In this document: positions 4,939 to 28,027 of the stretch, in pieces
Layout: each line of letters opens with the position of its first letter
How positions within the stretch are numbered: the stretch's first letter is position 1
DNA from: Candidatus Methanophagales archaeon
GTDB lineage: Archaea; Halobacteriota; Syntropharchaeia; Alkanophagales; Methanospirareceae
Assembly (NCBI GenBank): GCA_003336485.1
Contig: QENH01000177.1
Span: 1-32,425 of the forward strand
Direction: 5' to 3'
Length of the DNA: 32,425 nucleotides
Program-made: the position numbers and the translations under genes
Notes under the pieces: model-generated
Databases searched by the model: none
Told to the model about the DNA's origin: nothing
Seen by the model: the letters and a program-made list of their open reading frames with translations, nothing else

Positions 4939-5634
4939 CTATGGATTTGTCCACGCGTTTGGAGAATTCACCTGCGTTACGTTCTCACCGCTAGCAGTAA
5001 AGGCTTGAATAGTCCAGACACCCACTGCGTCCTCACCTGCATTGAAGTTCAGATTCTCCTTCTTCGTCCATGTGATACTCACTCCGACTCTCGTATGACA
5101 TGCGATGCATGCTTCATTTGCGCCTTCCATTAACGGTTCATCTATCGCGTCATCAACAAATGGTAGATGTGCTGCTTTGTCGCCTGTATCTGGAGCTTCG
5201 GTCAGGCCGAGCCCTCCCGCATGTGGTGCTATAAAAGGCGTACCATGACAGTCACTACAATCTTGCTTAAGGTTGTAATGTGTGAAGTTTCCGCCCCCGT
5301 GACATATCATACACTCCTGGGTAGATGCCGCATGTGCTCCCTGTCCCGGATAAGTCTCTGGTCCAGACCCCCAATCTCCAACGCCTGCATATCCAACCCG
5401 TGCATCGGTTCTGTGGCACCCCTCGCACTTGATATTCTCGTGTACGCCGTTATCACTGCTCATCATCTCATCCCTTATCTCAGCATGACACTTCTCGCAG
5501 GGGATGTCATTGCCAGCTCCTGAAAGATCATACCAAGTATGCTGCCCGCTGAAGAGCGATATAGAACTCGGAAGTGCAAATAACCCGATAGCAACAACCG
5601 CTATCACCACCAGAACAGATTTACCGATACCCAT
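4939..5634 (-). CDS. Pentaheme c-type cytochrome (paralogue 1)
   Basis: 231 residues with five CxxCH heme-attachment motifs: C46-H50, C70-H74, C108-H112, C126-H130 and C176-H180. The N-terminus is a single hydrophobic segment (about 6-28) acting as export signal and possibly as anchor, followed by SLFSGQHTWYDL. Extra histidines (H31, H65, H101, H119, H138, H156) are possible distal ligands. The last ~50 residues lack cysteine and look like a beta-strand domain (VGVSITWTKKENLNFNA...WTIQAFTASGENVT). Probably an extracytoplasmic electron carrier. It is a tandem paralogue of the next gene; both ends are near-identical at DNA level and the middle has diverged. Filament formation or a specific partner cannot be inferred from the sequence. 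Confidence 0.88.
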   Translation of the reverse strand: MGIGKSVLVVIAVVAIGLFALPSSISLFSGQHTWYDLSGAGNDIPCEKCHAEIRDEMMSSDNGVHENIKCEGCHRTDARVGYAGVGDWGSGPETYPGQGAHAASTQECMICHGGGNFTHYNLKQDCSDCHGTPFIAPHAGGLGLTEAPDTGDKAAHLPFVDDAIDEPLMEGANEACIACHTRVGVSITWTKKENLNFNAGEDAVGVWTIQAFTASGENVTQVNSPNAWTNP

Positions 5635-5680
5635 TTTTTACTTTTGTCCCCTTTTACCTTATCCCCTCATGGTAACAGTT

Positions 5681-5741
5681 AGTGGTCACCATATAACTAC
5701 TTTTCGGTTTTTTGCGGATTGTTACCTAAACGGGTAACTCC
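5681..5741 (-). promoter_or_regulatory. Conserved regulatory block upstream of cytochrome 1
   Basis: This ~60-base block lies 47-107 bases upstream of the cytochrome start and aligns with 6609-6668 upstream of the paralogue. It contains the perfect inverted repeat GTTACC-TAAACG-GGTAAC (5721-5738), a CTTTTCG-T-run spacer, and a second, imperfect dyad around 5682-5700 that overlaps a TTATAT TATA-like element on the minus strand. A dimeric regulator site is likely. Confidence 0.6.
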
Positions 5742-5862
5742 AAATGGCTGCCGCTATCTGGTTCGGTTATGCACAATAAAAGCTGTACCCTAAATATGCT
5801 AGATCTTCGTAATTCGCGCTTTTGATCCAATTCCGCTGGCTATTGTACAATTACGCGGTGGT

Positions 5863-6573
5863 TTATCTGGTCCATTCGTTCGGAGAATTCACCTGCGTTA
5901 CGTTCTCACCGCTAGCAGTAAAGCTTTGGATAGTCCAGACGCCATCTGCGTCCTCTGTTGCATTAAAGTTCAGATTCTCACGTTTCGTCCATGTGATACT
6001 CACTCCGACTCTCGTATGACATGTGATGCATGCCTCGTTTGGTCCTATCATCAGCTCGCTGTCTTTTGAATCTACTACAAACGGCTTATGTGCCGCTTTT
6101 GCGCCGCTGTCTTCGGGGTCGGTCGTCAGATTGAAACCACCTGCCGTTGGTGGGAACGGTGACCCCCCAGAGCCAAAAAAACCGGGATGGCATGCCTTGC
6201 AATTTACTGCTGCATCTATATAGTCATGTGTGTAATCTAAGTGACCTTGGGTCTCATAATCATGGCAGATCATGCAATCCTCGGTCGAAGCCGCATGTGC
6301 ACCAGTGCCGGTCTTACTAGACTCTCCGGCATAAGAGCCCACGGCTGCATCCGTACGGTGACAGCACTCGCACGTGAATCCTTCATGTGCTCCTGTTGAA
6401 GCCATTTCATCTCCTATCTCCGCATGACACTTCTCACATGGGACTTGGCTTCCCGCGCGTCCCAGATCATACCACGTATGCTGCCCGCTGAAGAGCGATA
6501 TAGAACTCGGAAGGGCGAATAGTCCTATTGCAAGAACAGCTATCGCCATCAGAACAAATTTACGGCTATTCAT
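5863..6573 (-). CDS. Pentaheme c-type cytochrome (paralogue 2)
   Basis: 236 residues, same architecture as the preceding cytochrome: N-terminal hydrophobic segment, SLFSGQHTWYDL, and five CxxCH motifs at C46-H50, C68-H72 (CECCH, with a third cysteine inside the motif), C100-H104, C125-H129 and C182-H186, then the same cysteine-free C-terminal domain. The segment between the third and fifth hemes is different (HLDYTHDYIDAAVNCKACH, then a Gly/Pro/Phe-rich stretch). It has its own upstream regulatory block, so each paralogue is probably transcribed from its own promoter in response to the same regulator. It is divergent from the S9 peptidase gene. Confidence 0.88.
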   Translation of the reverse strand: MNSRKFVLMAIAVLAIGLFALPSSISLFSGQHTWYDLGRAGSQVPCEKCHAEIGDEMASTGAHEGFTCECCHRTDAAVGSYAGESSKTGTGAHAASTEDCMICHDYETQGHLDYTHDYIDAAVNCKACHPGFFGSGGSPFPPTAGGFNLTTDPEDSGAKAAHKPFVVDSKDSELMIGPNEACITCHTRVGVSITWTKRENLNFNATEDADGVWTIQSFTASGENVTQVNSPNEWTR

Positions 6574-8676: not shown

Positions 8677-8842
8677 CAGGATACATGATGCAAGATACCG
8701 GATCTGGGATTTCCACGCAATTAAATATATCCCAACTTTTTACAACGTATATTCGTCGGAGCGTAGCGAAGACCAAGCAAAAGAGCAACAGTTTTTGCGA
8801 TGCAAACAAAAATAGGCGAAGAGTAAATCGTGAGTCAGACTA

Positions 8843-9595
8843 TTAGAATTTTAGAGGGTTGTTGTACTCAATTTCATTTATATTGAATTTAGCATAACAA
8901 AAATCGCCCAATTCAAGATTCCATTCCACTTCCACATTGTGCGGTATTTGTATCCCTTCAACCGCTCGGTAATCCCTATAATAACCCGTCCAATTTTCTA
9001 ATGTGTTCTTATCCCTGTATCTTTTTGCATAAAAGTGCGTGATTTGTCCTTGTAGATTAAAATGGAATATGCCATCAACAGTAAGTTCATCATCAGAAAG
9101 AATCACTCTTGCAGAATCATTATTTATTGGTTCCCACTTTAACTTTTCTGAGGGCAATAATGCTGTAGGAAACCAGGGGGTTTCTGCTACCCAGCGAAGA
9201 AGTTCGCCATGATCTGTTTCTTTTTCTTTGGCATCTACAAGTTTTATTATAGATACTAGTTTGACTTTAAGATTCCCCGTCCCGTTAATATACGTGTCCG
9301 TTGCAGATACTAAAGGAACTTTCCCAAACCAAACGAATCCTGGTTTTTGCGTTGTGAAGTATTCTTGCCCATCAATAGCCATCCATTTTTGGTCTGGTTT
9401 TGTTCTAAATTCACCTCCATGTTTCAATCTTACATAACTGATGTATGTCCGATTTTCCTGTAATGCATATTTAAAATATCTTTGAACCGGATCGGGAAGT
9501 CCTTTAATTTGTTCATGAGAATAAGAGCTATTAGTGTTATCTTTTGATGATGAGAAAAGTTTTTCTATTTCCTTTTCTAATTGTGATTTTGTCAT
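8843..9595 (-). CDS. DUF6920 (formerly DUF6544)-like protein
   Basis: 250 residues from the chosen start. Recognisable family features are LPDPVQRYFKYAL near the N-terminus, RLKHGGEFRTKPDQKW, LLRWVAETPWFPTALLPS in the centre and YRAVEGIQIPHNVEVEW near the C-terminus. The family has no established function. The frame is open to 9646, but the extra residues are a low-complexity Asn run. The ATG at 9595 has a GGAG about a dozen bases upstream and starts MTKSQLEKEIEKLF, so it is preferred. AT-rich compared with its neighbours and next to a transposase relic, so it may have been acquired. No signal peptide. Confidence 0.65.
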   Translation of the reverse strand: MTKSQLEKEIEKLFSSSKDNTNSSYSHEQIKGLPDPVQRYFKYALQENRTYISYVRLKHGGEFRTKPDQKWMAIDGQEYFTTQKPGFVWFGKVPLVSATDTYINGTGNLKVKLVSIIKLVDAKEKETDHGELLRWVAETPWFPTALLPSEKLKWEPINNDSARVILSDDELTVDGIFHFNLQGQITHFYAKRYRDKNTLENWTGYYRDYRAVEGIQIPHNVEVEWNLELGDFCYAKFNINEIEYNNPLKF

Positions 9596-9758
9596 TTCAT
9601 TATGTCTCCAATAATTATTGTTATTATTAACCTTAACTTCGACCAAATATGGGTGACATATACTACCATAACTACTTTATCCACCAGATTTTAGCATTTA
9701 GCAAAAGCAAAAGGGTTTTTATTAGTCATGTTCCCTATTACTAAATATTAGGAACCTA

Positions 9759-10075
9759 GAAGAGTGGGCAAAAAAGTGGTTGGAAGATCAGCGACATGAT
9801 GGTAAAACATGCCTTGAAATTAAGATGCATGGTTCAGGATACTTGCAGATCAGAGTAATCAACTTGTTTATGACCTGAGTTCCATGTTCTCCCTTTCTAT
9901 GAGTATTATAGAGGCGGAGAAGGGCTACAATAAGGATAAGATACGGGTACTTCAGATCAATCTCGCTCTTCTTTGCAGTGCTGACATGAGATTGCCAATA
10001 ATGATTCGCTCTCTTCCTGGCAGTGTAAATGATATAAAAACCCTCTATCACTCAACAATAAACAAGGTACAGTAA
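9759..10075 (+). pseudogene. IS1634/IS4-like transposase relic
   Basis: Two fragments in different frames. From 9759 a short stretch (EEWAKKWLEDQRHDGKTCLEIK) resembles the N-terminus of such transposases. From about 9842 (a stop lies in this frame at 9821) LVYDLSSMFSLSMSIIEAEKGYNKDK, QINLALL and RLPIMIRSLPGSVNDIKTL match the first catalytic region of IS1634-type DDE transposases (usually YDLTSISSYS..., QINLGL..., LP...R..PGS..D..TL). It stops at 10075, and the second half with the remaining acidic residues is missing. Frameshift, internal deletion and truncation make it non-functional. Recognition is by motif memory, not by search. Confidence 0.6.
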
Positions 10076-10134
10076 AAAATATAAAAAAGTTATCTTTAAC
10101 AAATACCGCATTATGTCATTCCACCCCTTTAACA

Positions 10135-10581
10135 TCAATCATACAACAAACGGGTCTTTTCATCCGCAAGTGTTGGTTGAATGATCTTAGTCCATCGCGA
10201 AGAATTCCATGTCCCGAGTTTCTTATGTATCTCATAGTAGTTCTGGGGGATCGGATGCGTTCCTATTACAACCTCAAGCCCATATTTTGCCTGGATAAAA
10301 TTACGAAAATCCGTCACACGTGGACATGGTGGATATCCAACGACCAGTCCTGTAGCAAGATGTATCACATTTGCCCCGTTCTTCTTCATCTCTTCAGGAG
10401 CGTATTCGATATTTCCTCCTGGACAGCCACCACACGCAGTATATCCGACCAGTTTCACTTCTTTATCCTTATAACTGCTGAATGCACCCTCCCTGTTCTT
10501 AAGCGCCCGTAGACATTTGCCTCCGGCACACATACGGTAGCGGTCGCATATAATAATCCCTATTCGAATTTCATCGCTCAT
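10135..10581 (-). CDS. CGGC domain protein
   Basis: 148 residues matching the CGGC domain family of small, putative metal-binding proteins found mostly in anaerobes. Cysteines are arranged as CDRYRMCAGGKC near the N-terminus, the defining CGGCPG in the middle, and YPPCPR after it. HLATGLVVGYPPCPRV and GTHPIP are typical. Function is not established; the cysteine pattern suggests metal or Fe-S binding. It is a single gene, downstream of a transposase relic. Confidence 0.8.
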   Translation of the reverse strand: MSDEIRIGIIICDRYRMCAGGKCLRALKNREGAFSSYKDKEVKLVGYTACGGCPGGNIEYAPEEMKKNGANVIHLATGLVVGYPPCPRVTDFRNFIQAKYGLEVVIGTHPIPQNYYEIHKKLGTWNSSRWTKIIQPTLADEKTRLLYD

Positions 10582-10752
10582 TTCTCGCCCTCTGTATCTT
10601 TTATAACAGAACTTAGGGATAATGTAGAGGTTTGTTTGTATTATTACTTTTATAATGCTCTTGCTATTTATTTAATTTCCGCCATCGTATTACATAAGCA
10701 TTATTGCAAAGATGCTCGAAGGTATGACTAGCTTTATTCCGAGGGTGGCTTG

Positions 10753-11252
10753 GTTGGGGCTTGAAATAGCTTTAAGTGTCGGATATAGCCATAAAAAATG
10801 AAAGGCTGAGCTGTTTCCATATGTGTTTAGAGCGGTAATACAAGACGAGCTTCTTGAGGCGCATAAGAACGAGTTACTATAATGCACCTTTTACATCCTC
10901 CTCAGCATAGCAGTCTATGCAAAGAGCTCGTCCTCGAATATCCATAAATTCTTATATAAAGCGTAACGTATTTGCATGGTCACATGAAATAACTGTGAAC
11001 TTTTATAGCCAAAAAATAAGTTAGTTATACTAAAGGGTTAAACCTATAATTTTACTCGCTATTAACTATATCTGCGAGGAAGAATTGACAGGTTTGAATA
11101 AAAGTATAAAAACCTTACATTAAAATGATGGAGATCATATCTACTTCGCTGATATATACCTTTTACTGGATGGCGAGAATTGTCCCGGTCATAGCAATAG
11201 GCATATTTGCAACGAATTTCGCGGTTGACATAGGGCTAATGCGGAAATTTGA
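10753..11252 (+). repeat. Segmental duplication, copy 1
   Basis: Matches 18875-19662 in four collinear blocks: 10753-10953 with 18875-19082; about 10957-11019 with 19296-19360; 11125-11136 with 19361-19372; and 11200-11252 with 19611-19662. Copy 1 has deleted the 5' two thirds of the zinc-ribbon gene but keeps the membrane-protein gene that follows. It accounts for most of the 540-base gene-free stretch from 10582 to 11124. Both copies also share an open stretch ending in AVIQDELLE.HKNELL that is interrupted by the same TGA, probably an older gene relic. Confidence 0.8.
10877..10953 (-). pseudogene. 3' remnant of the zinc-ribbon gene (copy 1)
   Basis: Reads EFMDIRGRALCIDCYAEEDVKGAL followed by TAG. 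This is the last ~25 residues of the intact 71-residue protein at 19003-19218 (which has Asp in place of one Glu and one extra Pro). The N-terminal coiled part and the first CxxC are deleted, with the break at about 10953. Confidence 0.75.
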
Positions 11253-12087
11253 TCGGTTGATTAAACCGATATCCCGTAAAGCGAATATCAGTGCAGTATC
11301 TGCTCTTTCGGTGGTAACCTGCACGTTCAGCACTACTGCCGGTTACTCCATGCTCGTGAACGGCCTGAACGAGAAAACTATTTCTGAGCGTGAAGTGATC
11401 GCAACCACGCTAATCAGCTCTTTTCCTAGCATCCTCTCTCACGTCCTCACGTTTTTCATACCTGTGGTGATTCCTATTCTCGGGTTGACTACGGGTATAA
11501 TCTATGTGTGTATGGTGGGGCTCGCAGCATTCCTGAAAACGTGTTTAGGGATATTCCTTGCGCGAGTATGGCTAAAAGACACGAAAAAACGTTCTACTAT
11601 TGCTGCTACAAATCGCAATAATGCCCCTGTTGTGGATAAGAAACAGGCATTGAATAAAAGCGCTGAGAGTGCATACAACATGCTCAAAAGGATTGTGCCC
11701 ACGATGTTCATCACCCTGTTTCTGGTATCCGTGGCGATGGAGCTGAACTTGTTCGATCATTTTTCTGCGATTCTAGGTCCTATTACGAGCTTTTTCGGAT
11801 TGGAAAGCGGAGTCGCTTTGATTAGCGCAACAGAGATTGTGAACACTACTGCCGGGATAATACTCGCTGGTAGCCTTCTGGCGGAAGGACTGATAACGAC
11901 AAAAAGTGTGCTAATCGCACTGTTCTTAGGCACGGTAGTATCATTCTCGGCAAGATTCGCAAAACATTCATTACCCTTGCACGTGTCGCTCTTTGGTCCT
12001 AAACTAGGGAGCAAGACGGTTGCGATAAATGCTACTACTACGCTTGTTATACATATAGTATTCATACTAGTGTTACTGATATTATAG
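11125..12087 (+). CDS. Nucleoside-recognition (Gate) domain integral membrane protein
   Basis: 320 residues with about eight to ten hydrophobic segments, split by a charged cytoplasmic loop (about 150-185, DTKKRSTIAATNRNNAPVVDKK). Motifs such as CTFSTTAGYSMLVNGL, TTLISSFPSILSHVLTFFIPVVIP and ISATEIVNTTAGIILAGSLL, and the two similar halves, fit the Gate-domain proteins of archaea (the SpoIIIAA/FeoB-Gate-like 'nucleoside recognition' group), whose transported substrate is not established. A TATA-like AAGTATAAA at about 11102-11110 sits so close to the ATG that the transcript is probably leaderless. Part of a duplication: a dead 5' copy is at 19361-19662. Confidence 0.75.
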   Translation: MMEIISTSLIYTFYWMARIVPVIAIGIFATNFAVDIGLMRKFDRLIKPISRKANISAVSALSVVTCTFSTTAGYSMLVNGLNEKTISEREVIATTLISSFPSILSHVLTFFIPVVIPILGLTTGIIYVCMVGLAAFLKTCLGIFLARVWLKDTKKRSTIAATNRNNAPVVDKKQALNKSAESAYNMLKRIVPTMFITLFLVSVAMELNLFDHFSAILGPITSFFGLESGVALISATEIVNTTAGIILAGSLLAEGLITTKSVLIALFLGTVVSFSARFAKHSLPLHVSLFGPKLGSKTVAINATTTLVIHIVFILVLLIL

Positions 12088-12161
12088 GCATTTGCTTTGC
12101 ATGCCAATCTTTTTCAGATACTTTTTGTTATTGCTATTTAAATCCGGACGATAAAGCGTGA

Positions 12162-12926
12162 ATATATCTTAAAGCGAGTTACTGTAACATTTCCAATAAC
12201 AATGTAACGAACAATTTGCATTGAGTACTACTCGCATACTCAAGCAATTCAAGGGTAGAATACGTCAATGCATCAAACAGCCTATTTCACAGCATCAAAT
12301 TGGTTAATTCAAGCAATAACACCATTTCAAACAGCACGGGTGGCATTAGTTTGATGGATTCGAGCATCAACACCGTTCGCGACAACGAGCGAGAATAGAT
12401 GTATCTATTTACGTGGACCAAAATTCTGGTATTCCTGAAAGCTGCAAAAGATGCGGCGGTCGGCGTATATCTCAGGAAAAGCTCGCAGTGCATAGTTGAA
12501 GATAGTGTCTGTGAGGGATGTTCTCATGGAATTTGCATAGGTAATTCGTCTGAGAACTTCGTGCGGGACAACATCTGCAATAACGGCACTCAAGCCAAAA
12601 GACCCTTGTTCCTGGACGGATACTGTATAGACCTCGATTACTAGGCAGACAATAATCTAATAGTGAACAACAGCTGCTGCTGGAACTCTCCGTCAATGAT
12701 AAACTACACGTATAAAGGAAGAAACTGCACGAATTATATAGGTAAATACTGGTGCGATTACGGAGGACACGATGAGGACGGTGATGGAATTGGCGATATT
12801 CCTTACCTCTCGGGTAGGGATATTTATCCGCTAATGGAGCGGTTTGAGATTTATTTCGTACAAAAACAAAATTCATATGGATGGATAAACAGCACCAAAT
12901 TCGTATACGCAAATTTAAGGGTTTAA
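12162..12926 (+). pseudogene. NosD-like parallel beta-helix gene, 5'-truncated with three in-frame stops
   Basis: One uninterrupted frame encodes beta-helix rungs from IYLKASYCNISNNNVTNN through SSNNTISNSTGGISLMDSS, VYLRKSSQCIVEDSVCEG and GICIGNSSENFVRDNIC to the conserved C-terminal signature IGKYWCDYGGHDEDGDGIGD and YPLMERF. It is broken by TGA (12222), TAG (12396) and TAG (12642), with TAA at 12924 as the natural end. The signal peptide and the PDDYATIQEAVDAA segment of intact relatives are absent. The stretch after the second stop (MYLFTWTKILVFLKAAK) fits rungs poorly and may hide a compensated frameshift. It lies directly before an intact paralogue. Confidence 0.75.
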
Positions 12927-12980
12927 TATGTCAGGACACAAACAATAAGATTAGCGTAGGAATGGTGAAAAAACGAACTA

Positions 12981-13733
12981 ATGAAAAGCAAAAGAATAAA
13001 ACAAAAGGCACTAATATTCGCAGTTATATTTGCAATGATGGCATTCGTAAGTGGTGAATCCACATCCGCAACAACGGTTCTCGTGCCTGATGATTATGCA
13101 ACGATTCAAGAAGCAGTGGATGCTGCAAATGCTGGTGATATGATTATCGTAAGGGATGGAACTTATCGCGAGAATATAGACGTTAAGAAACGGCTGACGC
13201 TAAAATCCGAGAAAGGCTCAGAAAATTGTAATGTTCAAGCAGCGGCTCCAGATGATCATGTCTTTAATGTGAGTGCTGATCATATAGAAATATCCGGGTT
13301 CTCGGTAGAAGGTGCAAATGACTATAAGAAAGCAGGGATAGATCTTCATGCAGATTACTGCAATATATCGAACAACACCTGCTCCTCAAACAATGAGTAT
13401 GGCATCTACCTCGAATGGTCAGACAACAACTTCATTTATCTTAACAACCTCATAAATAACTGCAAAGGAGTTTATTATACGGGATCCGAGAATATCTGGA
13501 ACACTACGGAGAAAATAACCTACACCTATAACGGCAGCACATACTCCAACTCTCTTGGTAACTACTGGGCTGATTATACCGGAAACGATGCTAATGATGA
13601 TGAAATAGGCGAAACACCTTACCGAATAAAGTCAGACGAAGACAATTACCCCTTAATGCTACCCTGGCAGAATTACATCCCTGAAGAAACAAGAGCCGCT
13701 GAAAACAAAAAGAAAGCATTACCCAAGGAATAG
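12981..13733 (+). CDS. Secreted NosD-like parallel beta-helix protein
   Basis: 250 residues. Residues 1-31 form a signal peptide (basic KSKRIKQK, hydrophobic core, cut near SATT). VPDDYATIQEAVDAANAGDMIIVRDGTYRENIDV is the usual beta-helix N-cap of archaeal NosD/CASH-domain surface proteins, followed by Asn-rich rungs (ISNNTCSSNNEYGIYL, FIYLNNLINN) and the C-terminal LGNYWADYTGNDANDDEIG, whose Asp/Asn cluster resembles a calcium site. It is short for the family and has no PGF-CTERM anchor, ending in a Lys-rich tail, so it is probably released or held by other surface proteins. Potential N-glycosylation sites (NxT/S) are frequent. Exact role unknown; surface carbohydrate binding is a family-level guess. 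Confidence 0.75.
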   Translation: MKSKRIKQKALIFAVIFAMMAFVSGESTSATTVLVPDDYATIQEAVDAANAGDMIIVRDGTYRENIDVKKRLTLKSEKGSENCNVQAAAPDDHVFNVSADHIEISGFSVEGANDYKKAGIDLHADYCNISNNTCSSNNEYGIYLEWSDNNFIYLNNLINNCKGVYYTGSENIWNTTEKITYTYNGSTYSNSLGNYWADYTGNDANDDEIGETPYRIKSDEDNYPLMLPWQNYIPEETRAAENKKKALPKE

Positions 13734-13761
13734 TATAATACCTTCATGTACAACTAGAAAC

Positions 13762-13768
13762 TATAAAA
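13762..13768 (+). promoter_or_regulatory. TATA box of the radical SAM gene
   Basis: TATAAAA, with purine-rich bases (AGAAAC) immediately upstream, about 75 bases before the ATG at 13843. Confidence 0.35.
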
Positions 13769-13842
13769 GGGGCAGGGTAATTAATAGTTTTCACAGATTC
13801 CGATATGAGACGGGAATACATGAAAGTCTAGAATGAAGAAAC

Positions 13843-14796
13843 ATGAAAGAATACGAGAATTGCAACTTGTGCGAATGGAGATGCGGAATTAATAGATATA
13901 ACGAGGTAGGCGTATGCAACGTAAAACTGCCTGAGATTGCATATACATGTCTTGCGCAATCGCTTAAAAGTTACTCAATAACACTCCTCGGCTGCAATTT
14001 CAGATGTCTATACTGCAACGCATACCGATTATCGCAATATCCGGATACCAATTGGTTCTATCGTGGTTACGTCGCCCCAAAAGAACTAGCAGAAGAAGCG
14101 GTAGACAAATTACGTGAAGCCGGGCTCAAGAAGCTTGGTTTTACCGGTGGAGAACCGACAATACATCTACCTTATATCGAAGAAGTAGTAAATGAGGCGA
14201 AGAAATTGATGCCTGAACTAAAAATAGCATTTACAACCAATGGCTTTGCAACAGAAGCGAGTATGAAACGGATAGTCAAGATTTGTTCTTATATTGCACT
14301 TGAGATAAATGCCTTTAATGATGATACGCATCTGGCTTTAAGCGGCGCTCCTGTTGAGCAGGTCTTAAGAAATGTGGAATACCTCATCGAAAACAAAGCA
14401 AAAATAAGGGCTCTTAAAACCGTTGTGGTGCCCGGGATAAATGATAATGAGATAGAAGAAATAGCAAAATTTATTGCTTCGTTCGATACCTCAATTCCGT
14501 ATCACTTAATAGGCTTCAGGCCAAGTTTCATGCTCTATTATCATCCTGGACCTACAAGGAAAGAACTAGCGGATATAGGGCGAAGATGTAAAAGGCATTT
14601 GGAAGACGTCACCTGGGGCGGTGAATCGCCAAAGGAAGTGCAATTCAATGATTCCGGGGCCGCACTTGCGTTGAAATATGCAAAGTTAGCAGGATGTGTA
14701 AGCAAAGATAGGAATTGTGGTCGTTGTGACATGAACAAAAACTGTCCTGCAATATTAAAAGAGCCGTGGTTGAATAAGCAGGAGCGGGATATATAA
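13843..14796 (+). CDS. Radical SAM protein, PflA/PflX-like
   Basis: 317 residues. The radical SAM cluster motif CNFRCLYC gives C51, C55 and C58, and GGEPTIH is the SAM-binding GGE element. Two further cysteine groups frame the core: C7, C10, C14 and C25 at the N-terminus (NCNLCEWRC...GVC), and C285, C292, C295 and C301 at the C-terminus, able to hold an auxiliary iron-sulfur cluster. This layout resembles the archaeal proteins related to pyruvate formate-lyase activating enzymes (COG1313/PflX and AmmeMemoRadiSam-type); the substrate is unknown. It lies upstream of cobN with a 236-base promoter region between, so co-transcription is not certain. Confidence 0.85.
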   Translation: MKEYENCNLCEWRCGINRYNEVGVCNVKLPEIAYTCLAQSLKSYSITLLGCNFRCLYCNAYRLSQYPDTNWFYRGYVAPKELAEEAVDKLREAGLKKLGFTGGEPTIHLPYIEEVVNEAKKLMPELKIAFTTNGFATEASMKRIVKICSYIALEINAFNDDTHLALSGAPVEQVLRNVEYLIENKAKIRALKTVVVPGINDNEIEEIAKFIASFDTSIPYHLIGFRPSFMLYYHPGPTRKELADIGRRCKRHLEDVTWGGESPKEVQFNDSGAALALKYAKLAGCVSKDRNCGRCDMNKNCPAILKEPWLNKQERDI

Positions 14797-14901
14797 ATGA
14801 AAATGTGAAAACTAAAAAGAGGCACTATAAATGTTCTATTAGCTTACTTTGTATGCCCGACTTATGATCTTCATTCCGGCCGATTTCAAACGTGTCTTTA
14901 A

Positions 14902-14941
14902 ACCGAAAAGTTTATATAGTGACCGGAAGATTTATATATGG
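14902..14941 (+). promoter_or_regulatory. Tandem TATA-containing 20-bp repeats upstream of cobN
   Basis: ACCGAAAAGTTTATATAGTG (14902-14921) is immediately followed by ACCGGAAGATTTATATATGG (14922-14941), matching at 15 of 20 positions. Each carries a BRE-like ACCGRAA and a TTTATATA box, suggesting doubled promoters or a tandem regulator site about 90-130 bases before the cobN ATG. Confidence 0.45.
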
Positions 14942-14982
14942 TCGTGATAGATATTTAGGGCATAAACTACATATATAACCTA

Positions 14983-14993
14983 ATACATAACAT
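14983..14993 (+). promoter_or_regulatory. 11-bp motif shared with the chlID upstream region
   Basis: ATACATAACAT, 39 bases before the cobN ATG. Its exact reverse complement lies at 19780-19790, 43 bases before the ChlI/ChlD-type gene. A candidate common operator, but a chance match in AT-rich DNA is not excluded. Confidence 0.3.
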
Positions 14994-15032
14994 TTTTATA
15001 AAGAAAAATGTGAAAAAAAGGTGATAAAAAAG

Positions 15033-18000
15033 ATGAAGGTAACATCAATAACCTGGGGGAGCGATATCTCCTTGCTCGTTGAAGTGGGTAAGGAACTTGG
15101 AATAGACTTGGATGCATGGTCTGCACGCGACCTGGAGGATGAGAGGAGGCGAATTGATTGCATAAACTCATTCGAGCACGCCGATGTCACTCTTCTGCGT
15201 CTAACAACTGATAAGGTCTGGGATGAGTTCATCGAGAAATTAAACAAGAACGTTCCAATAATCCCTCTAGGACGAAACATTTTCTTCCGCTCGCTTTCAA
15301 ACGTTTCATTGGATATTGTTGCAACTGTCAATGCGTACCATACGTATGGCGGGGCAGAGAACATAAAGAATATGCTGAGCTATATTGGAAAAGAAGTTTT
15401 AGGCCTGGATTACACGTATGATGATCCCAAGGAGACGATGTGGCAAGGCATATACCATCCGGATGCAAAAACAGCCTTTGCGTGCATAGATGCGTATTTG
15501 CACTGGTATAACCAGAAATCCAAGCACAAAGTCGGCATATTATTCCCCCGCACCTTATGGGCAAATGGCGACCTGGAAATCATCAATACATTGGTCCGTG
15601 AACTGGAAAAGGAATTCGATGTGTTTCCCGCGTTCTGCTATGGCATGGGCGACGCAGAACTCGGTGCTAAGCCAAGCGGCGAAGTCATTGAAGAATTCTT
15701 CTTGGGTCCTCTCAAGCTCGATGCACTAATAAACCTACAATCGGTATTTAATGCTGGAACTGAAGAAGGATCGACCAATTCCCTGAAAGAACTCGACGTT
15801 CTAGTATTCCATCCTCTGCTGGCATACTACAAGACAGAGGAAGAGTGGAGAAGGGATAGTCAAGGGCTATCCAATCTGGAAGTTGGCTGGAGTGTCGCGA
15901 TGCCCGAATTCGAAGGTGTGATCGAGCCGATAATCATGGGAGTGCCGAGAGCAGAAGAGGAATACGGAGCAGAGTTTGAGCGGCATGTACCAATCAATGA
16001 GCGGGTAGCGAAAATCGTGAACCGGGTGAAGAGCTGGCTAGCATTAAAAGATAAGCCAAAATCCGAGCGAAAAGTTGCTTTTATACTCCATAATAATCCT
16101 TGCGCTTCTGTTGAAGCGACAGTAGGGAGTGCAGCACATCTTGATGCCTTAGAGAGTGTTGCGAGGATATTGAATTGTATGAAGGCGGAAGGCTATTCCA
16201 TCGTGCCACCGGAAGATGGCAAAGCGCTTAGCGAGACTATCATGACACGGAAGGCGATTTCTGAGTTCCGATGGACAACTGTGGATGAAATCGTAAGTAA
16301 AGGTGGTGCACTTGCGATGATAACCAAGGCGGATTATGAGGCTTGGTTTGCTACACTTAGTCCAAAAGTGAAGGGCAAGATGTGTGAAGTCTGGGGAAAT
16401 CCACCTGGTGCGGCAATGGTATACGATGGTAAAATCGTAGTTACAGGTATAGAATACAAAAACGCAGTGGTATGCGTGCAGCCGAAGCGAGGTTGTGCGG
16501 GTTCAAGATGCGATGGTCAAGTCTGCAAGATACTCCATGACCCGGAAGTTCCCCCGCCGCATCAATATTTAGCAGCCTATCGGTATCTGGAGAACACTTT
16601 CGGCGCTGATGTGATCGTTCATGTAGGCACACATGGCAATCTGGAATTTCTACCTGGCAAATCGCTCGCACTGTCAGAAAGCTGTTACCCGGACATAGCA
16701 ATAGGGAATTTGCCGCATATATATATCTATAACTCCGATAACCCGTCAGAAGGAACAATCGCAAAGAGAAGGAGTTATGCAACGCTTATAGACCACATGC
16801 AAACAGTGATGACCGAAAGTGGCTTGTATGGCGAGTTAAAGGAACTCGAAGATCATATCGCAGAATATAACAAGGTAAAATCGTCAGATAAGGCAAGGAC
16901 TCATGCTTTAGAGCACATAATTATTGATCTGTTACGAAAAACGAAACTAGCCGAGGAGATAAGACTTGACAAAAGGTTAGAGGAAGGATATTCCTGTGAT
17001 ACTATAATAGAACTTGCACATGAGGTCATTACCTGCATATACAACACCCAGATACCTGATGGCATGCACATCTTCGGTGAAGTTCCAAAAGCCGAAAAGA
17101 AGGTTGAGCTAATCAATTCGATACTGAAACACGATTCAGAGCTAAGGAAATTAGTATTTGTGCTCATGGGAGAGGACATCCAGCCTTCAGATGCGGGAAG
17201 CGAGTTTTTAGCCGAGGTGGACAATATAGCAAAGGCGTTTATTTACGCGTTCTTGACTGCAGAAGAGCCTGTAGAAGTAGCGGCAAGGATATTGGGTGAT
17301 AGATTGAAGCTAAATGATGAGCATACACTTTCTACGATGAGGGATCGGGTACAGGATATATCAGCAAGGATAGAAGCATCGGATGAGATAGGGAGTTTGT
17401 TCCACGGCTTTGATTCCGGCTATATCGAGCCAGGACCCTCCGGGCTGATAACAAGGGGTAAGCCGGAGATACTGCCAACCGGCAGGAACTTTTATTCGCT
17501 TGACCCGTTCAAGATACCCACAAAGGCTGCGTGGGCGATAGGTAAGCGACTTGCAGAAGGTGTGCTAAGCAAATATGAGGCGGAGAACGGAAAGCTTCCG
17601 GAAAACATTGCTATGTACTGGATGGCATCGGACATCATGTGGGCTGATGGCGAGCAGCTTGCACAGATAATGCACCTAATTGGTGTAGAGCCGATCTGGA
17701 AAGACGGGCAGGTAAAAAAGTACCGGATTATTCCTCTTGATCTGCTTGATCGCCCGCGAATAGATGTTACGATTAGAGTGAGTGGGATTACAAGGGACTG
17801 TTTTTATAACTGTATCGAGCTCTTAGACGAAGCAATACGTGAGGTTGCAATGCTTGATGAGCCCATAGAAAAGAACTATTTGAGAAAGCATGTATTGGCA
17901 TGGGAGAAGACGCACGATGAAAATACAAGTGGGAATGAACATGCGCGTATATTCGCAAGTAAGCCGGGCACATATGGCAATGGCGTGAATTTAGCGGTCT

Positions 18001-18704
18001 ACGCATCGGCATGGCAAGAGGAGAAGGATTTGTCGGACATATTCGTGCATTGGAACGGATATGCATACGGGAAGAACAATTTTGGTGCAGAAGCGCATGA
18101 TAGTTTTGTATCACAGCTTAAAACAGTTGATTTGACTTTCAATAAGACGGTTACAGACGAATACGATCTATTCGGCTGCTGTTATTACTTTGGAACCCAC
18201 GGAGGACTCACAACTGCGGCGAGAGAGATTTCCGGGAAGGATGTCTCTGCATATTACGGCGATACGCGAGACATGGATAAGATAGAGGTGAGAAGCCTTG
18301 CAGACGAGATGCGAAGGATCGTTCGCTCGAAGTTGCTGAATCCAAAGTGGATAGAGGGGATGAAGCGTCATGGATATAAGGGTGCTGGCGACATATCAAA
18401 GCGAATAGGGCGAGTTTACGGCTGGGAAGCGACCACGCAGGAGGTGGACGATTGGATATTCAATGATATTGCGAGGACGTTCGTGTTGGATAAAGAGATG
18501 CGGAAGTTCTATGAGGAGAACAATCCATGGGCATTGGAAGAGGTGGGTAGGCGGTTGTTAGAAGCCTACGAAAGAGGGCTGTGGATCGCAGACAAAGAGG
18601 TGATAAAAGGATTGAAGAGTGCATATCTCGAGATGGAGGGGTGGATAGAAGAGAAGATGGGCGATGTGAAGGGTGAGTTCCAGGGTGGTGCGATTGGGGT
18701 GTGA
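15033..18704 (+). CDS. cobN: CobN/BchH-type metal chelatase large subunit
   Basis: 1223 residues, normal for CobN. This is the tetrapyrrole-binding subunit of the three-part ATP-dependent cobalto/magnesium chelatases that insert metal into the macrocycle. The CobN/Mg-chelatase signature VHVGTHGNLEFLPGKSLALS is at about 529-548, preceded by GCAGSRCDGQVC; later LFGCCYYFGTHGGLTTAAREISG and RSKLLNPKWIEGMKRHGYKGA are typical C-terminal blocks. The ATG at 15033 is chosen because GGTGAT (15020-15025) sits as a ribosome binding site seven bases before it; a GTG at 15021 would place that site inside the gene. Methanogen-type genomes often carry several CobN paralogues, so cobalt for corrinoid is likely but another metal or tetrapyrrole is possible. 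Its AAA+/vWA partner is at 19834. Confidence 0.93.
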   Translation: MKVTSITWGSDISLLVEVGKELGIDLDAWSARDLEDERRRIDCINSFEHADVTLLRLTTDKVWDEFIEKLNKNVPIIPLGRNIFFRSLSNVSLDIVATVNAYHTYGGAENIKNMLSYIGKEVLGLDYTYDDPKETMWQGIYHPDAKTAFACIDAYLHWYNQKSKHKVGILFPRTLWANGDLEIINTLVRELEKEFDVFPAFCYGMGDAELGAKPSGEVIEEFFLGPLKLDALINLQSVFNAGTEEGSTNSLKELDVLVFHPLLAYYKTEEEWRRDSQGLSNLEVGWSVAMPEFEGVIEPIIMGVPRAEEEYGAEFERHVPINERVAKIVNRVKSWLALKDKPKSERKVAFILHNNPCASVEATVGSAAHLDALESVARILNCMKAEGYSIVPPEDGKALSETIMTRKAISEFRWTTVDEIVSKGGALAMITKADYEAWFATLSPKVKGKMCEVWGNPPGAAMVYDGKIVVTGIEYKNAVVCVQPKRGCAGSRCDGQVCKILHDPEVPPPHQYLAAYRYLENTFGADVIVHVGTHGNLEFLPGKSLALSESCYPDIAIGNLPHIYIYNSDNPSEGTIAKRRSYATLIDHMQTVMTESGLYGELKELEDHIAEYNKVKSSDKARTHALEHIIIDLLRKTKLAEEIRLDKRLEEGYSCDTIIELAHEVITCIYNTQIPDGMHIFGEVPKAEKKVELINSILKHDSELRKLVFVLMGEDIQPSDAGSEFLAEVDNIAKAFIYAFLTAEEPVEVAARILGDRLKLNDEHTLSTMRDRVQDISARIEASDEIGSLFHGFDSGYIEPGPSGLITRGKPEILPTGRNFYSLDPFKIPTKAAWAIGKRLAEGVLSKYEAENGKLPENIAMYWMASDIMWADGEQLAQIMHLIGVEPIWKDGQVKKYRIIPLDLLDRPRIDVTIRVSGITRDCFYNCIELLDEAIREVAMLDEPIEKNYLRKHVLAWEKTHDENTSGNEHARIFASKPGTYGNGVNLAVYASAWQEEKDLSDIFVHWNGYAYGKNNFGAEAHDSFVSQLKTVDLTFNKTVTDEYDLFGCCYYFGTHGGLTTAAREISGKDVSAYYGDTRDMDKIEVRSLADEMRRIVRSKLLNPKWIEGMKRHGYKGAGDISKRIGRVYGWEATTQEVDDWIFNDIARTFVLDKEMRKFYEENNPWALEEVGRRLLEAYERGLWIADKEVIKGLKSAYLEMEGWIEEKMGDVKGEFQGGAIGV

Positions 18705-19002
18705 ATACCGATTTATAGAATTATGAATTAATCGCCTAAATAATTCGTAATTGGCTTTATCGGCGAAGGTATTTCGTGAGAAATACGCCACGCAGATAGC
18801 CGAGAAGGTTTGTGTATCCGTACGTACAGTTCGATGAGGTGACGGAGGTCGTAAGGCCGCATCCTACTATGCGTAGTTGGGGCTATCGAAATAGCTTTAA
18901 GTGCCGGAGATAGCCATAAAAAATGAAAGGCTGAGCGGTTTTCATATGTATTTGTGGCGGTAATACAAGACGAGCTTCTTGAGGTGCATAAGAACGAGTT
19001 AC

Positions 19003-19218
19003 TTACGGTAATGCACCTTTTACATCCTCATCAGCATAGCAGTCTATGCAAAGTGCTCGTCCTCGAATATCCATAAATTCTTCAAGTTCTTTACCACATC
19101 TGGAACACCGTACTTTCTTTACTTTTCTACCGCCTTCTTCAGCCTTTTCTGCTTCCCTTTCCATCCACCTTGCCCTTCGCTCTTCGGGCGTTTCTTCCCT
19201 TTCTTGCATCATTTCCAT
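19003..19218 (-). CDS. Small zinc-ribbon protein
   Basis: 71 residues. The N-terminal half is highly charged and probably a helix (QEREETPEERRARWMEREAEKAEEGG). The C-terminal half has two CxxC knuckles, CSRC and CIDC, spaced as in a zinc ribbon. No function can be assigned; such proteins may bind nucleic acid or a protein partner. TATATAAAG-like sequence on the minus strand (about 19240-19250) and a GAGG (19233-19236) precede the start; an internal Met at codon 3 is an alternative. A truncated copy is at 10877-10953. Confidence 0.65.
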   Translation of the reverse strand: MEMMQEREETPEERRARWMEREAEKAEEGGRKVKKVRCSRCGKELEEFMDIRGRALCIDCYADEDVKGALP

Positions 19219-19360
19219 TTATTACGTTTTGTTCCTCAGAGTATATAAAGTATAGTCTATTATCTATTTAGTACACTATTTTTATTATATCTATACATAA
19301 AGTATGGCGTATTTACATGGCCGCATGAAATAACTGTGAACTTTTATAGCCAAAAAATAA

Positions 19361-19662
19361 ATGATGGAGATCCTATTTGCCAATTTTGATATTTATCATA
19401 GACACAGATTTCACAGATTTACTCAGATGCTACTCGAAAGTCCCGAAAAGATTATTATGTTTTTACGGGTTGATAGAATAAAAATCAAAAAAGTAATTAT
19501 TGCGCTACTTTAATTCTTTAAATCCGTGTTAATCTGCGTTAATCTGTGTCTTAAAAATCATTGGAAAATTTTACTACATTTCTGGTAAATTAATATTCGT
19601 GAGTTCCCTAGGCAGATTTGCAACGAATTTCGCGGTTGACATAGGGCTAATGCGGAGATTTG
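19361..19662 (+). pseudogene. 5' remnant of the Gate-domain membrane protein gene (copy 2)
   Basis: Begins with the same ATGATGGAGATC as the intact gene at 11125, is interrupted by the MITE-like element at 19400-19551, and resumes at 19611-19662 with sequence equal to 11200-11252 except for scattered changes (encoding FATNFAVDIGLMR). The rest of the gene is absent. Confidence 0.7.
19400..19551 (-). mobile_element. MITE-like element with AGACACAGATT ends
   Basis: 152 bases bounded by AGACACAGATT at 19400-19410 and its exact reverse complement at 19541-19551, with further CAGATT words inside both ends. No coding capacity. Read on the minus strand, its first ~70 bases match 25840-25910. It lies inside the dead membrane-protein copy. 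Confidence 0.6.
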
Positions 19663-19779
19663 AATTATATCCCCGATGCACAAGGATAACTCCTTAGTGC
19701 GTAATAACAAAAATCAGACAATACAGAATAAAGTTTTATTAAATGAATATCGAAAAGCTTATATGGCATCAATGTTAAT

Positions 19780-19833: not shown

Positions 19834-21930
19834 ATGACACACCATGTTAGAAGGGCGATACTGCCTTTTACTGCGATTGTAGGGCAAGATACGATGAAGA
19901 AAGCGCTTATTTTGAATGCTATTAACCCCCGTATAGGCGGGGTACTTATCAGAGGCGAGAAAGGGACTGCGAAATCCACCGCTGTTCGTGCTCTCGCAGA
20001 ACTGTTACCCGAAATCGAAGTGGTTAATGGCTGTACGTTCAATTGCAATCCTTATGATACACGAGAGATGTGCGACCTCTGCTATGCCAAAAGTACGAAC
20101 GGAGAAGATCTAAAAGTAGCAATGCGAAGGATGTGGGTCGTAGACCTTCCTCTCGGAGCTACAGAAGACCGGGTCGTTGGCTCAATAGATATGGAAAAGG
20201 CGATAAAAGGCGGGATAAAGGCGCTAGAGCCCGGTATATTGGCTGCTGCCAATAGGGGTATTCTTTATATTGACGAGGTAAATCTTTTAGATGATCACGT
20301 TGCCGATGTCATTCTGGATTCGGCTGCGATGTCAATAAACGTGGTTGAGCGAGAGGGTGTCTCTATCTCTCACCCCTCTAAGTTCATTCTGGTAGGTACA
20401 ATGAACCCGGAGGAAGGCGAGCTCAGACCACAATTATTAGATCGTTTTGGGCTGCAAGCAAGTGTAGAGAGTATAGATGATGCCGCTATGCGGGTAGAAA
20501 TAGTGAAACAGGTGGAAAGTTTTGAATGCGGCCCGGAAGAGTTCAAGGAGCAATTCGAGGTAACCCAAAAAGAGTTACGTGATAAGATAGCGCATGCGAA
20601 ACAGATAGTTAATGAGGTTACAATTAGCGATGATTTACTGAAATTAACCGCAGAAACATGCATTAAACTCGGTGTAAGAACTCATAGAGCTGAGATCGTC
20701 ATAACGAGAGCGGCAAAAACTATTGCCGCTTTCGACAGCAGGAAAAACGTTACCTTCGAGGATATAAAAGAGGCAATGGAATTAGCTCTTCCGCATAGAA
20801 TGCGTAGAAAACCCTTTGAATCGCCTAGTTTGGATAACAAGAAACTTGATGAGCTGATGCAGGACACAAAGAAAGAGCATGAAGAGGAGAAGAAAGAGGA
20901 TAGGCAACAGAAACAGCAACAGCAACAACAGCAAAAGAAAGAGAAAGAAGAGCAAAAACAGCAGCATGAACATGAGCAACCCGATAAGAACCCGGAAGGT
21001 CAAGATGACAAGGACGATGTAAACGAATCCCAAAACGAATCGGTTTTCAATATTGGTGATCCGATTGATACAAGGACAGTGAGGCAAAAGCAGAAGAAAG
21101 ACAAGACATATCGCAGGAAGACTTCAGGGCGAAGGATCCCCACGCTCTCGCTTCGCAATAACGGTAAGTACATACGGCACGGTATCCCAAAGGGAAAAAT
21201 AACGGATGTCGCGCTCGATGCGACGATACGAGCTGCGGCGGTATATCAGAAAGAGAGAGTGGTTGATTCCGATTTAGCAGTAGTAATAAAAAGCCAGGAT
21301 ATTCGTGAGAAGATTCGGGTAGGTAAATTATCAACAGCAACGATGTTTGTTGTGGACGCATCCGGTTCAATGGGTGCGAACAGAAGAATGGAAATCGCAA
21401 AAGGTGCTGTCCTTTCATTATTGCTGGATTCGTATCAACAAAGAGATAAGGTCGGTATGGTCGCATTTAAAGGAGACCAGGCAGATGTTTTGCTGCCGCT
21501 ATGTTCAAGCAGTGATTTGGCAGTTGAGATGTTAAAGGAACTCCCGACAGGAGGGCGAACACCCTTAGCTGCCGGTTTGGAACAGGGCTTAAATCTCCTG
21601 ATGGCGGAAAAGCATCGTGATGAAGAAGCAATACCAATTCTGCTCTTAATTTCCGATGGGCGTGCAAATGTGTCCGCAGGAGGGAGCAAAGAGCTAGAGC
21701 AGGAACTGTTCGCGCTCGCAGAACAAGCACGAGCTAAAGGTATATATGTGATTGTCATTGATACAGAAATAGTCAGCGACTCGTTTATTCAGATGCAGCT
21801 TGGATATTGCAGAGCGATAGCAAGCTATTCCGGCGGTAAATATTACCCGATTGCTGATTTGACTTCGGGCGCAGTGCGGGATATTGTTATCAGTGAGCGA
21901 AACATGTTAAATCTGTGTAAATCCATGTAA
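19834..21930 (+). CDS. Fused ChlI-ChlD type chelatase subunit (AAA+ ATPase plus vWA)
   Basis: 698 residues. An N-terminal AAA+ module has Walker A GEKGTAKS (41-48), Walker [11 protein letters not shown] (143-152), [20 protein letters not shown] as sensor/arginine-finger region, and a cysteine group CTFNCNPY...CDLC (67-83) typical of Mg-chelatase I homologues. A Gln/Lys/Glu-rich linker (about 345-400) leads to a C-terminal vWA domain with MIDAS motif DASGS (508-512). It supplies ATP-driven remodelling to a CobN/BchH large subunit, and cobN 1.1 kb upstream is the obvious partner. The last residues (LNLCKSM) and the TAA fall inside a dispersed repeat, so the original C-terminus may have been replaced. 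GGGAT precedes the ATG. Confidence 0.92.
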
Positions 21931-26070: not shown

Positions 26071-27741
26071 ATGGAAAAAGCGATCTTTACATTAGGCATA
26101 TTATTGATAGGTGCACTATGTGTAGGAACTGCTTCTGCGGACTTGCAGTTACCTGATTTGGTAAAGCCCGCAAGAGATATCGTAGAGATCAATGTTGAGG
26201 AACATGGCGGCACCCTGATTTCAAACGTAGAGAGCCAAATAGATTTTGACGGTTATTTTGGGGATGGTCCGTTTGACGTATATTTTCTAGTTCCGAAAAA
26301 CGCTGAAAGTATTGCAGTAAAAGCTAACAATCAGCTCAAAACATACCATTACCTTCTAAATGCGTCTGAGTATATGAACAGCAATGTCAAAGTACCATCG
26401 GAGTATATAGCGGATTACACAGTAATTGCATGGACAGTAGGGGACGATTTTGTACCCAGTCGGGATGAAGATTATATACCCATTAATATCAGTGTTACAT
26501 ACTCGCACAGACTGGTAGGATCAATCCTACCGGGTTGAACATATACACTTAAGTACGCACTGATTCCGCTCGCTTATAAAGCGATAAATGTGAGTATAAA
26601 GCTCCCAATTACTATTAACCCGGATACAATCATATGCAAACCGAAACAGTTAAAGTTATCCTATAATGACACAGGAACCTACTTGCATTTGAACGAAAAT
26701 AATAGTGATTACCGCGTACCTTTTGGTGATGTTGAAGTCTACTTTTCTACGCACACCGCGTCACCGATATATGTGCCTGATGACTTTGCAACGATACAGG
26801 ATGCAGTGGATGCCGCTTATCTCAATGACACGATAATCGTAAGAGACGGGACTTACATCGAAAACGTGGATGTGTACAAATGCTTAACGATTCGTTCTGA
26901 GAATGGTTCTGATGCAACGATTGTTCGGGCTGAAGAGCCATATTCTGTCTTTTACGTGCATGCCGATTATGTGAACATAAGCGGGTTCTCTGTAGAAGGG
27001 GAAGCGAGTATATTAAGTGGTGGAATATATCTTAATGCTGAGTACTGCAACATATCTAACAACAAGTGCAGAAACAACACTAATGGTATCTTTATCAGGA
27101 GTCATTTCGGCGACTCAGACAACAACTGCATATCAAACAACAAATGCACAAACAACGTTCTTGCAAATATTTTTCTTGCTGGTTCAAACAACAAATAGAA
27201 AGGCAATGTCATGGTCAATAACGGAATATGTTGGGGTATTGGTAACGAGATAGACACAAGCAATACGGTAAATGGAAAACCCGTTTACTACTGGGCGAAT
27301 GTGAACGGTGGAAAGGTCCCTAATGGAGCAGGGCAAGTCATTATCGTGAATTGCAGTAATGTCATCGTTGAAAATCAGTATTTGGACAATGCATGTATTG
27401 GTATACAAATCGCTCGATCCTCGAATATCACGGTAAAAAACAACACTTGCTCTTCAAACACTAAGTGCGGCATCCACTTCATCTGGAATTCAAGCAACAA
27501 CTTCGTATATCTTAACAACTTCATAAACAACACGGACAACGTTTATTCTTCTGAATTAACCAACTTATGGAACTCAACAGAAGAAATAACCTACTTTTAT
27601 AACGGAACTACCCACGAGAGTTACTTGGGCAACTTCTGGAGTGACTATACCGGAACAGATGCAGACGATGATGGAATCGGCGATAATCCCTACTTGAGTG
27701 GCATTGATTTCGAAACTTGTGGCTTGCGAAGGCAGAAATGA
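26071..27741 (+). pseudogene. Large secreted beta-helix (NosD-like) gene with two in-frame stops
   Basis: A single frame of 1,671 bases. Signal peptide at MEKAIFTLGILLIGALCVGTASA. An N-terminal ~130-residue domain of unknown type (ARDIVEINVEEHGGTLISNVESQ, FDVYFLVPKNAESI) ends at TGA (26536) and continues in frame (TYTLKYALIPLAYKAINVSIKLP) into VPDDFATIQDAVDAA and beta-helix rungs. These are broken by TAG (27196) and resume with NGKPVYYWANVNGGKVPNGAGQVI and rungs to LGNFWSDYTGTDADDDGIGDNPY. The end (FETCGLRRQK, TGA) is foreign, being antisense to an MFS fragment, so the natural C-terminus is lost. Three pieces of 155, about 219 and about 180 residues would be made if each were translated; only the first has a signal peptide. 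Frame is kept throughout. Confidence 0.75.
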
Positions 27742-28027
27742 CACAAGTACAATCTGTCTAAAAGCAGAGATAAAACCTATAAGAAGGATTATTTTCACGG
27801 CATCGTGTTTGATGATGCTTTTAAAAGACTCATGTTCTTCTGTTTTACTTGCATTTGGGTTCTTTACTTCCGGCAAGAAAGGTAACACAAGCAAAAATGC
27901 AATTACGCTGATACCAGACATCGCATAAAATACCGATGTCATTCCAAATAAGTGCCAGAGAAAACCACCTAAAAGCGGTCCCACACCCACCCCGAACAAA
28001 GAAACAAATACTCGAGAGGAACTATCT
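27700..28027 (-). pseudogene. MFS transporter fragment
   Basis: The minus strand encodes the central part of a major facilitator superfamily transporter: SRVFVSLFGVGVGPLLGGFLWHLFG, then a hydrophobic helix (TSVFYAMSGISVIAFLLVLPFLPE), a charged central loop (VKNPNASKTEEHESFK) and another helix (VKIILLIGFISAFRQIVLVSFLP). Both ends are cut: on one side by the beta-helix gene, on the other by a second MFS gene in opposite orientation. Non-functional remnant. Confidence 0.65.

Follow-up and report, generated by a model that had tools for sequence, protein, structure and literature searches.

Duplication and complementary gene loss at a predicted cobaltochelatase locus of a Methanophagales (ANME-1) archaeon

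Introduction

The stretch of DNA analysed here (32,425 nucleotides, referred to as the window) carries two similar blocks, each with parts of the same two genes, one encoding a zinc-ribbon-like protein (ZnR) and the other a membrane protein (Gate1). This raises the question of how the segment came to be present twice, when this happened and whether the two genes ever formed a unit. A preliminary description of the DNA had taken the blocks for copies of a ZnR-Gate1 unit that decayed in a complementary manner. The window is contig C26 of the genome G000, a Methanophagales (ANME-1) MAG of 3.18 Mb in 201 contigs, and was compared with 51 genomes of the family, including the congeners G001 (CSMAG_2415), G002 and G004. 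Contig C27 of G001 corresponds to the public record JAUWND010000064.1, and the evidence from this fragmented MAG is split over contigs C27 and C136. A paper search found no literature on this chelatase cluster in ANME-1.

Two collinear copies and their decay

Base-level alignment confirms the duplication, with 10753-11252 (copy 1) and 18876-19663 (copy 2) being collinear direct repeats. Their matching blocks (Table 1) all lie in the same orientation at offsets of 8.1-8.4 kb, and the likeness is far above chance. No third copy of the repeat block was found in a search of the whole 3.18 Mb MAG.

The proposed complementary decay also holds, with each copy retaining one of the two genes whole (Gate1 in copy 1, ZnR in copy 2) and a broken version of the other. 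Alignment with G001 places a deletion of approximately 211 bases in copy 1, by which ZnR is reduced to its last 24-25 codons. Copy 2 possesses the whole ZnR of 71 codons and has lost approximately 103 bases of the Gate1 leader, Gate1 codons 5-24 and all beyond codon 43. The Gate1 remnant of copy 2 had been described as a stub of ~300 bases interrupted by a MITE. A dispersed repeat is indeed present; however, the 235-base insert which contains it stands in place of codons 5-24, making this a replacement rather than a clean insertion, and the Gate1-derived bases that are left number only 67. At least 30 sequences in the genome match the insert core (19395-19600), mostly over part of its length. 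The left boundary of copy 2 coincides with the right-hand end of a second dispersed repeat (about 18760-18884; 18816-18884), which has many copies in both G000 and G001. Both surviving genes are under purifying selection and are maintained, with dN/dS values of 0.38 (G000-G001) and 0.21 (G000-G002) for Gate1 and 0.12 for ZnR, the value for cobN1 being 0.18.

Gene content of the locus

The genes between and around the two copies are listed in Table 1.

Table 1. Features of the duplicated region in the window, with the evidence for each.
Feature	Position	Strand	Evidence and remarks
CGGC-domain protein	10135-10581		Profile match
Copy 1, left block	10753-10953		91% to 18876-19082 (E 2.6e-77); ZnR stub (last 24 codons) on minus strand at 10880-10951
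Copy 1, middle block, ZnR-Gate1 intergenic	10953-11019		88% to 19294-19360 (E 2e-17)
Gate1, intact membrane protein, the displaced survivor	11125-12087	+	PF07670, E 1.8e-12, 48.1 bits (gathering score 29.6); 93% to G001 C27
NosD-like gene (12981-13733) and fragment, between Gate1 and radSAM	12399-13733	+	PF05048
80-base spacer, ending at putative duplication join 13816	13736-13815		Spacer and join recur at G001 C136 39219-39348
Radical SAM gene (radSAM), probably the right-hand paralogue	13843-14796	+	PF04055; dS 0.29-0.33 to G001/G004 copies
Gate2 5' remnant, remainder deleted	14812-14874	+	Aligned to G001 C27, G001 C136 and G004 C190
cobN1, large chelatase subunit	15021-18704	+	NCBIfam NF004646, 1703.7 bits (cut-off 1468)
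Copy 2, left block	18876-19082		91% to copy 1 left block
ZnR, intact zinc-ribbon-like protein (71 aa)	19003-19218	-	96% to G001 C27; two CxxC pairs
Copy 2, middle block and Gate1 codons 1-4; ~103-base leader deletion	19294-19373	+	Alignment
Insert with dispersed repeat, in place of Gate1 codons 5-24	19374-19608		At least 30 genome matches for 19395-19600
Copy 2, Gate1 codons 25-43; ancestral place of Gate1 ahead of chlID	19609-19663	+	96% to 11198-11252 (E 4e-19); operon order in relatives
chlI/chlD-type chelatase subunit (chlID)	19834-21930	+	TIGR02442, 789.7 bits (cut-off 779.45)

Downstream of chlID there is a gene for a periplasmic binding protein, followed by a FecCD permease gene. ZnR matches no Pfam or NCBIfam family above cut-off, its name being supported by its two CxxC pairs only, and neither Gate1 nor Gate2 has an NCBIfam family above cut-off. 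Gate2, reduced to its first codons in the window, lies upstream of cobN in several relatives. It is whole in G001 C136, and one identical internal deletion of it is found in G001 C27 and G004; a search for a Gate2 orthologue in G000 found none.

Some further features were observed in the window and in related cobN genes. Two adjacent minus-strand genes (4939-6573), which carry CxxCH motifs and are almost identical at their starts, probably encode duplicated multihaem cytochromes, and pieces of a transporter-like membrane protein spread over several ORFs on both strands at 27574-29241 are possibly a broken gene. The cobN of genome G017 (L153 2284-5969) shows 70% identity to the window cobN over residues 4-518 and 85% over the adjoining residues 519-1227, and is perhaps a mosaic of two types or a frameshifted gene. 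In G001 C136, an IS200-type transposase (PF01797) sits between Gate2 and cobN (L177 16420-16875), and a similar degraded stretch is present between cobN1 and ZnR of the same genome (L145 8315-8813). The likeness between G001 C27 8315-8813 and C136 32392-32990 was considered as the trace of a deleted cobN1 and was rejected, as the C136 sequence at this position is the IS200-type transposase.

Ancestral neighbourhoods of Gate1 and ZnR

Gate1 was detected at E <= 1e-40 in 19 of the 51 family genomes, and in 13 of the 16 Gate1-bearing genomes outside the genus it is immediately preceded by cobN, immediately followed by chlID, or both, the usual order being cobN-Gate1-chlID-btuCD. Among the 51 genomes, G000 and G001 alone have ZnR close to Gate1. 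In G012 the two share a contig at a distance of 202 kb, and in G007 ZnR adjoins cobN1 with no Gate1 present. From these gene orders, two older neighbourhoods, cobN-ZnR and cobN-Gate1-chlID, appear to have been joined in this genus. As relatives carry Gate1 just before chlID, the remnant in copy 2 marks the home position of the gene, and copy 1 is the displaced one.

An adjacent and divergent ZnR-Gate1 pair had been expected in relatives, and this is what G001 C27 has, an intact pair just downstream of cobN1 with ZnR on the opposite strand; outside the genus, however, ZnR is never near Gate1. A deep or functional ZnR-Gate1 unit is accordingly not supported, the intact pair being confined to this genus, and no evidence for a functional link or co-regulation between the two genes was found. 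The functional link of Gate1 is probably with the chelatase genes and not with ZnR. The suggestion that cobN had come to part two co-regulated genes thus finds no support, since cobN is the old operon neighbour of Gate1 and the pairing with ZnR is restricted to the genus. The operon neighbours of Gate1 make it most likely that this membrane protein works with the CobN/ChlID chelatase, for example in the movement of a metal or a tetrapyrrole.

The radSAM join and the age of the duplication

The join at 13816 is also present, identical to the base, in G001 (C136:39299), where it lies between a 47-codon Gate1 stub and chlID. Here the Gate1 stub is followed by the spacer of the window and the first 50 bases of the radSAM region, and then by chlID. 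The start of radSAM in this G001 join stub reads 'ATGAAAGAA', as it does in the window, and that of the other radSAM genes reads 'ATGAACGGA', the start codons being ATG AAA GAA in the window and G001 stub and ATG AAC GGA in the other genomes. An intact radSAM is also present in G001 (C136:30119), 9 kb to the left of the join stub, and, as with the radSAM of G004, an intact or decayed histidine kinase gene lies ahead of it. With a query that includes this histidine kinase flank, the matches of the window and the G001 stub both begin at query base 2824. The histidine kinase found ahead of the G004 radSAM sits elsewhere in G000 (C48) and gives no left boundary for the duplicated segment.

The radSAM of the window has a dS of 0.33 to that of G001 and 0.29 to that of G004, compared to 0.11-0.12 for G001-G004 and G001-G002 and 0.11-0.18 for cobN1, chlID, Gate1 and ZnR between G000 and G001, making it approximately 2-3 times as diverged from its congeners as the neighbouring genes are. 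Given this divergence and the shared join, it is most likely that two radSAM copies predate the split of G000 and G001, with G000 having kept one and the congeners the other. The duplicated unit would consequently be both larger, with radSAM included, and older than the preliminary description had proposed.

The repeat blocks point the same way with less force. Copies 1 and 2 differ by 7.5% over 268 shared bases, and their distances to G001 are 6.0% and 5.2%, respectively; the bootstrap value for the first distance exceeding that between copy 1 and G001 is just 0.83 on these 268 bases. Distances only were used here, as a three-way tree of the two copies and G001 is not rootable. As the distance between the copies is equal to or greater than those to G001, the copies would date from around the time of the species split or from before it, and the values fit a pre-split date without proving it.

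Proposed history and alternatives

The locus was probably shaped by a tandem duplication that took in radSAM-Gate2-cobN-ZnR-Gate1 and predated the species split, followed by lineage-specific deletions; we infer the tandem nature, the exact extent and the order of the deletions from the repeats, their decay, the shared join and the operon order of relatives observed above. The genus ancestor would have had the order radSAM-Gate2-cobN1-(ZnR on the other strand)-Gate1-chlID-ABC transporter. The segment from radSAM through Gate1, with the NosD-like gene, would have been duplicated head-to-tail before G000 and G001 separated, bringing the Gate1-NosD end against the second radSAM as a new join. Deletions and dispersed-repeat insertions may then have stripped the redundant parts differently in each lineage, such that G000 retained Gate1 of the left unit and radSAM, cobN1 and ZnR of the right unit, and G001 the left radSAM and Gate2, with the cobN1-ZnR-Gate1 stretch on another contig. 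In the window this would have left Gate1 ~8 kb upstream of its home, with a dead stub at the old position.

Some observations count against a tandem event. The two copies match over a few hundred bases each, and two full units are seen nowhere, the extent of the duplication being deduced from the radSAM join. The second cobN of G001 (C136) shares just 75% identity with cobN1, and the window's NosD fragment (12455-12686), which shows 90% identity to G001 C136, lies on the other side of Gate1 there. Due to these last two points, further replacement and shuffling must be assumed. Retention of different copies in the sister lineages is clear for radSAM; for Gate1 the signal is blurred by the 98% identity of the two G001 copies, a likeness which calls for gene conversion or a separate later event.

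It is unlikely that only a short ZnR-Gate1 block was copied, in G000 alone, to a place ahead of radSAM, as a dispersed duplication, perhaps aided by the dispersed repeats at its flanks, that was never tandem. Such an event would suit the fact that this block is the only part seen twice in the window, that a dispersed element ends at the left edge of each copy, and that the left neighbours of copy 1 (the CGGC gene and DUF6544) have no syntenic match in G001; a search of the congeners with the left flank of copy 1 (8700-10752) returned, apart from weak partial matches, short dispersed repeats only. However, the spacer/radSAM join also occurs in G001 beside a Gate1 stub and so is not specific to G000, and the paralogy of radSAM requires a duplication that took in this gene.

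The structure of G001 C27 brings in a different possibility. Upstream of cobN1 this contig has a second, partial Gate1 (a 3' half) with 98% identity to the intact copy, so that a Gate2 fragment, cobN1 and ZnR are enclosed by two Gate1 copies (L145 3193-10336). The outer flanks of the pair (GtrA on one side and dph5 beyond the intact copy) match the two sides of Gate1 in G002, where the gene is single. The structure resembles the product of a recombinational integration at Gate1, with a later duplication plus conversion as the alternative. The broader idea that cobN1-ZnR-Gate1 is a chelatase cassette relocating within the genus, with Gate1 fragments marking old and new sites, is quite unlikely; if true, sister species would hold the same single working gene set at different places. 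More specifically, a mobile cassette excised and re-integrated through recombination in Gate1, with the Gate1 ends in the window as its scars, would account for the flanks in G001 C27, which are as expected of a single-crossover integration, but is very unlikely given that no recombinase, attachment site or circular form was seen and that the outer flanks in the window differ from those of an uninterrupted Gate1 locus. An assembly or binning artefact is hardly credible, for although metagenome assemblies are fragmented and prone to fail at repeats, several indels and a 7.5% difference over shared bases separate the copies, and the orders cobN1-ZnR and radSAM-Gate2 remnant-cobN1 recur in the independent assemblies G001 and G004.

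Tandem duplication with subsequent loss suggests that, in these uncultured methane-oxidising archaea, an operon gene can shift its place by duplication and loss and not by transposition, with relatives keeping intermediate stages. The radSAM copies of these genomes, being apparent paralogues, would be unsuitable as single-copy markers.

Comparison with known systems

Duplication followed by complementary loss is an ordinary kind of event, here unusually well documented through relatives, and no new system is involved. Reciprocal gene loss and divergent resolution of duplicates have been described mostly for eukaryotic genome duplications. The locus resembles these in that a segment was present twice with each gene surviving once, and in that sister lineages appear to keep different copies (the right-hand radSAM in the window, the left-hand one in G001). 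It differs from the eukaryotic cases in its local scale, in its occurrence in an uncultured archaeon and in the mere few hundred bases per copy that can still be compared.

The gene content is like that of the three-part CobN/ChlI-ChlD cobaltochelatase clusters, as in most relatives cobN, the chlID-type gene and the FecCD/periplasmic-binding ABC transporter genes form one uninterrupted group with Gate1; cobalt as the inserted metal is a prediction from sequence. Unlike the usual predicted cluster, the window has Gate2 deleted, Gate1 upstream and ZnR between cobN1 and the Gate1 remnant. Gate1 and Gate2 are also like paired membrane proteins of PF07670, since both match this family and flank cobN in several ANME-1 genomes.
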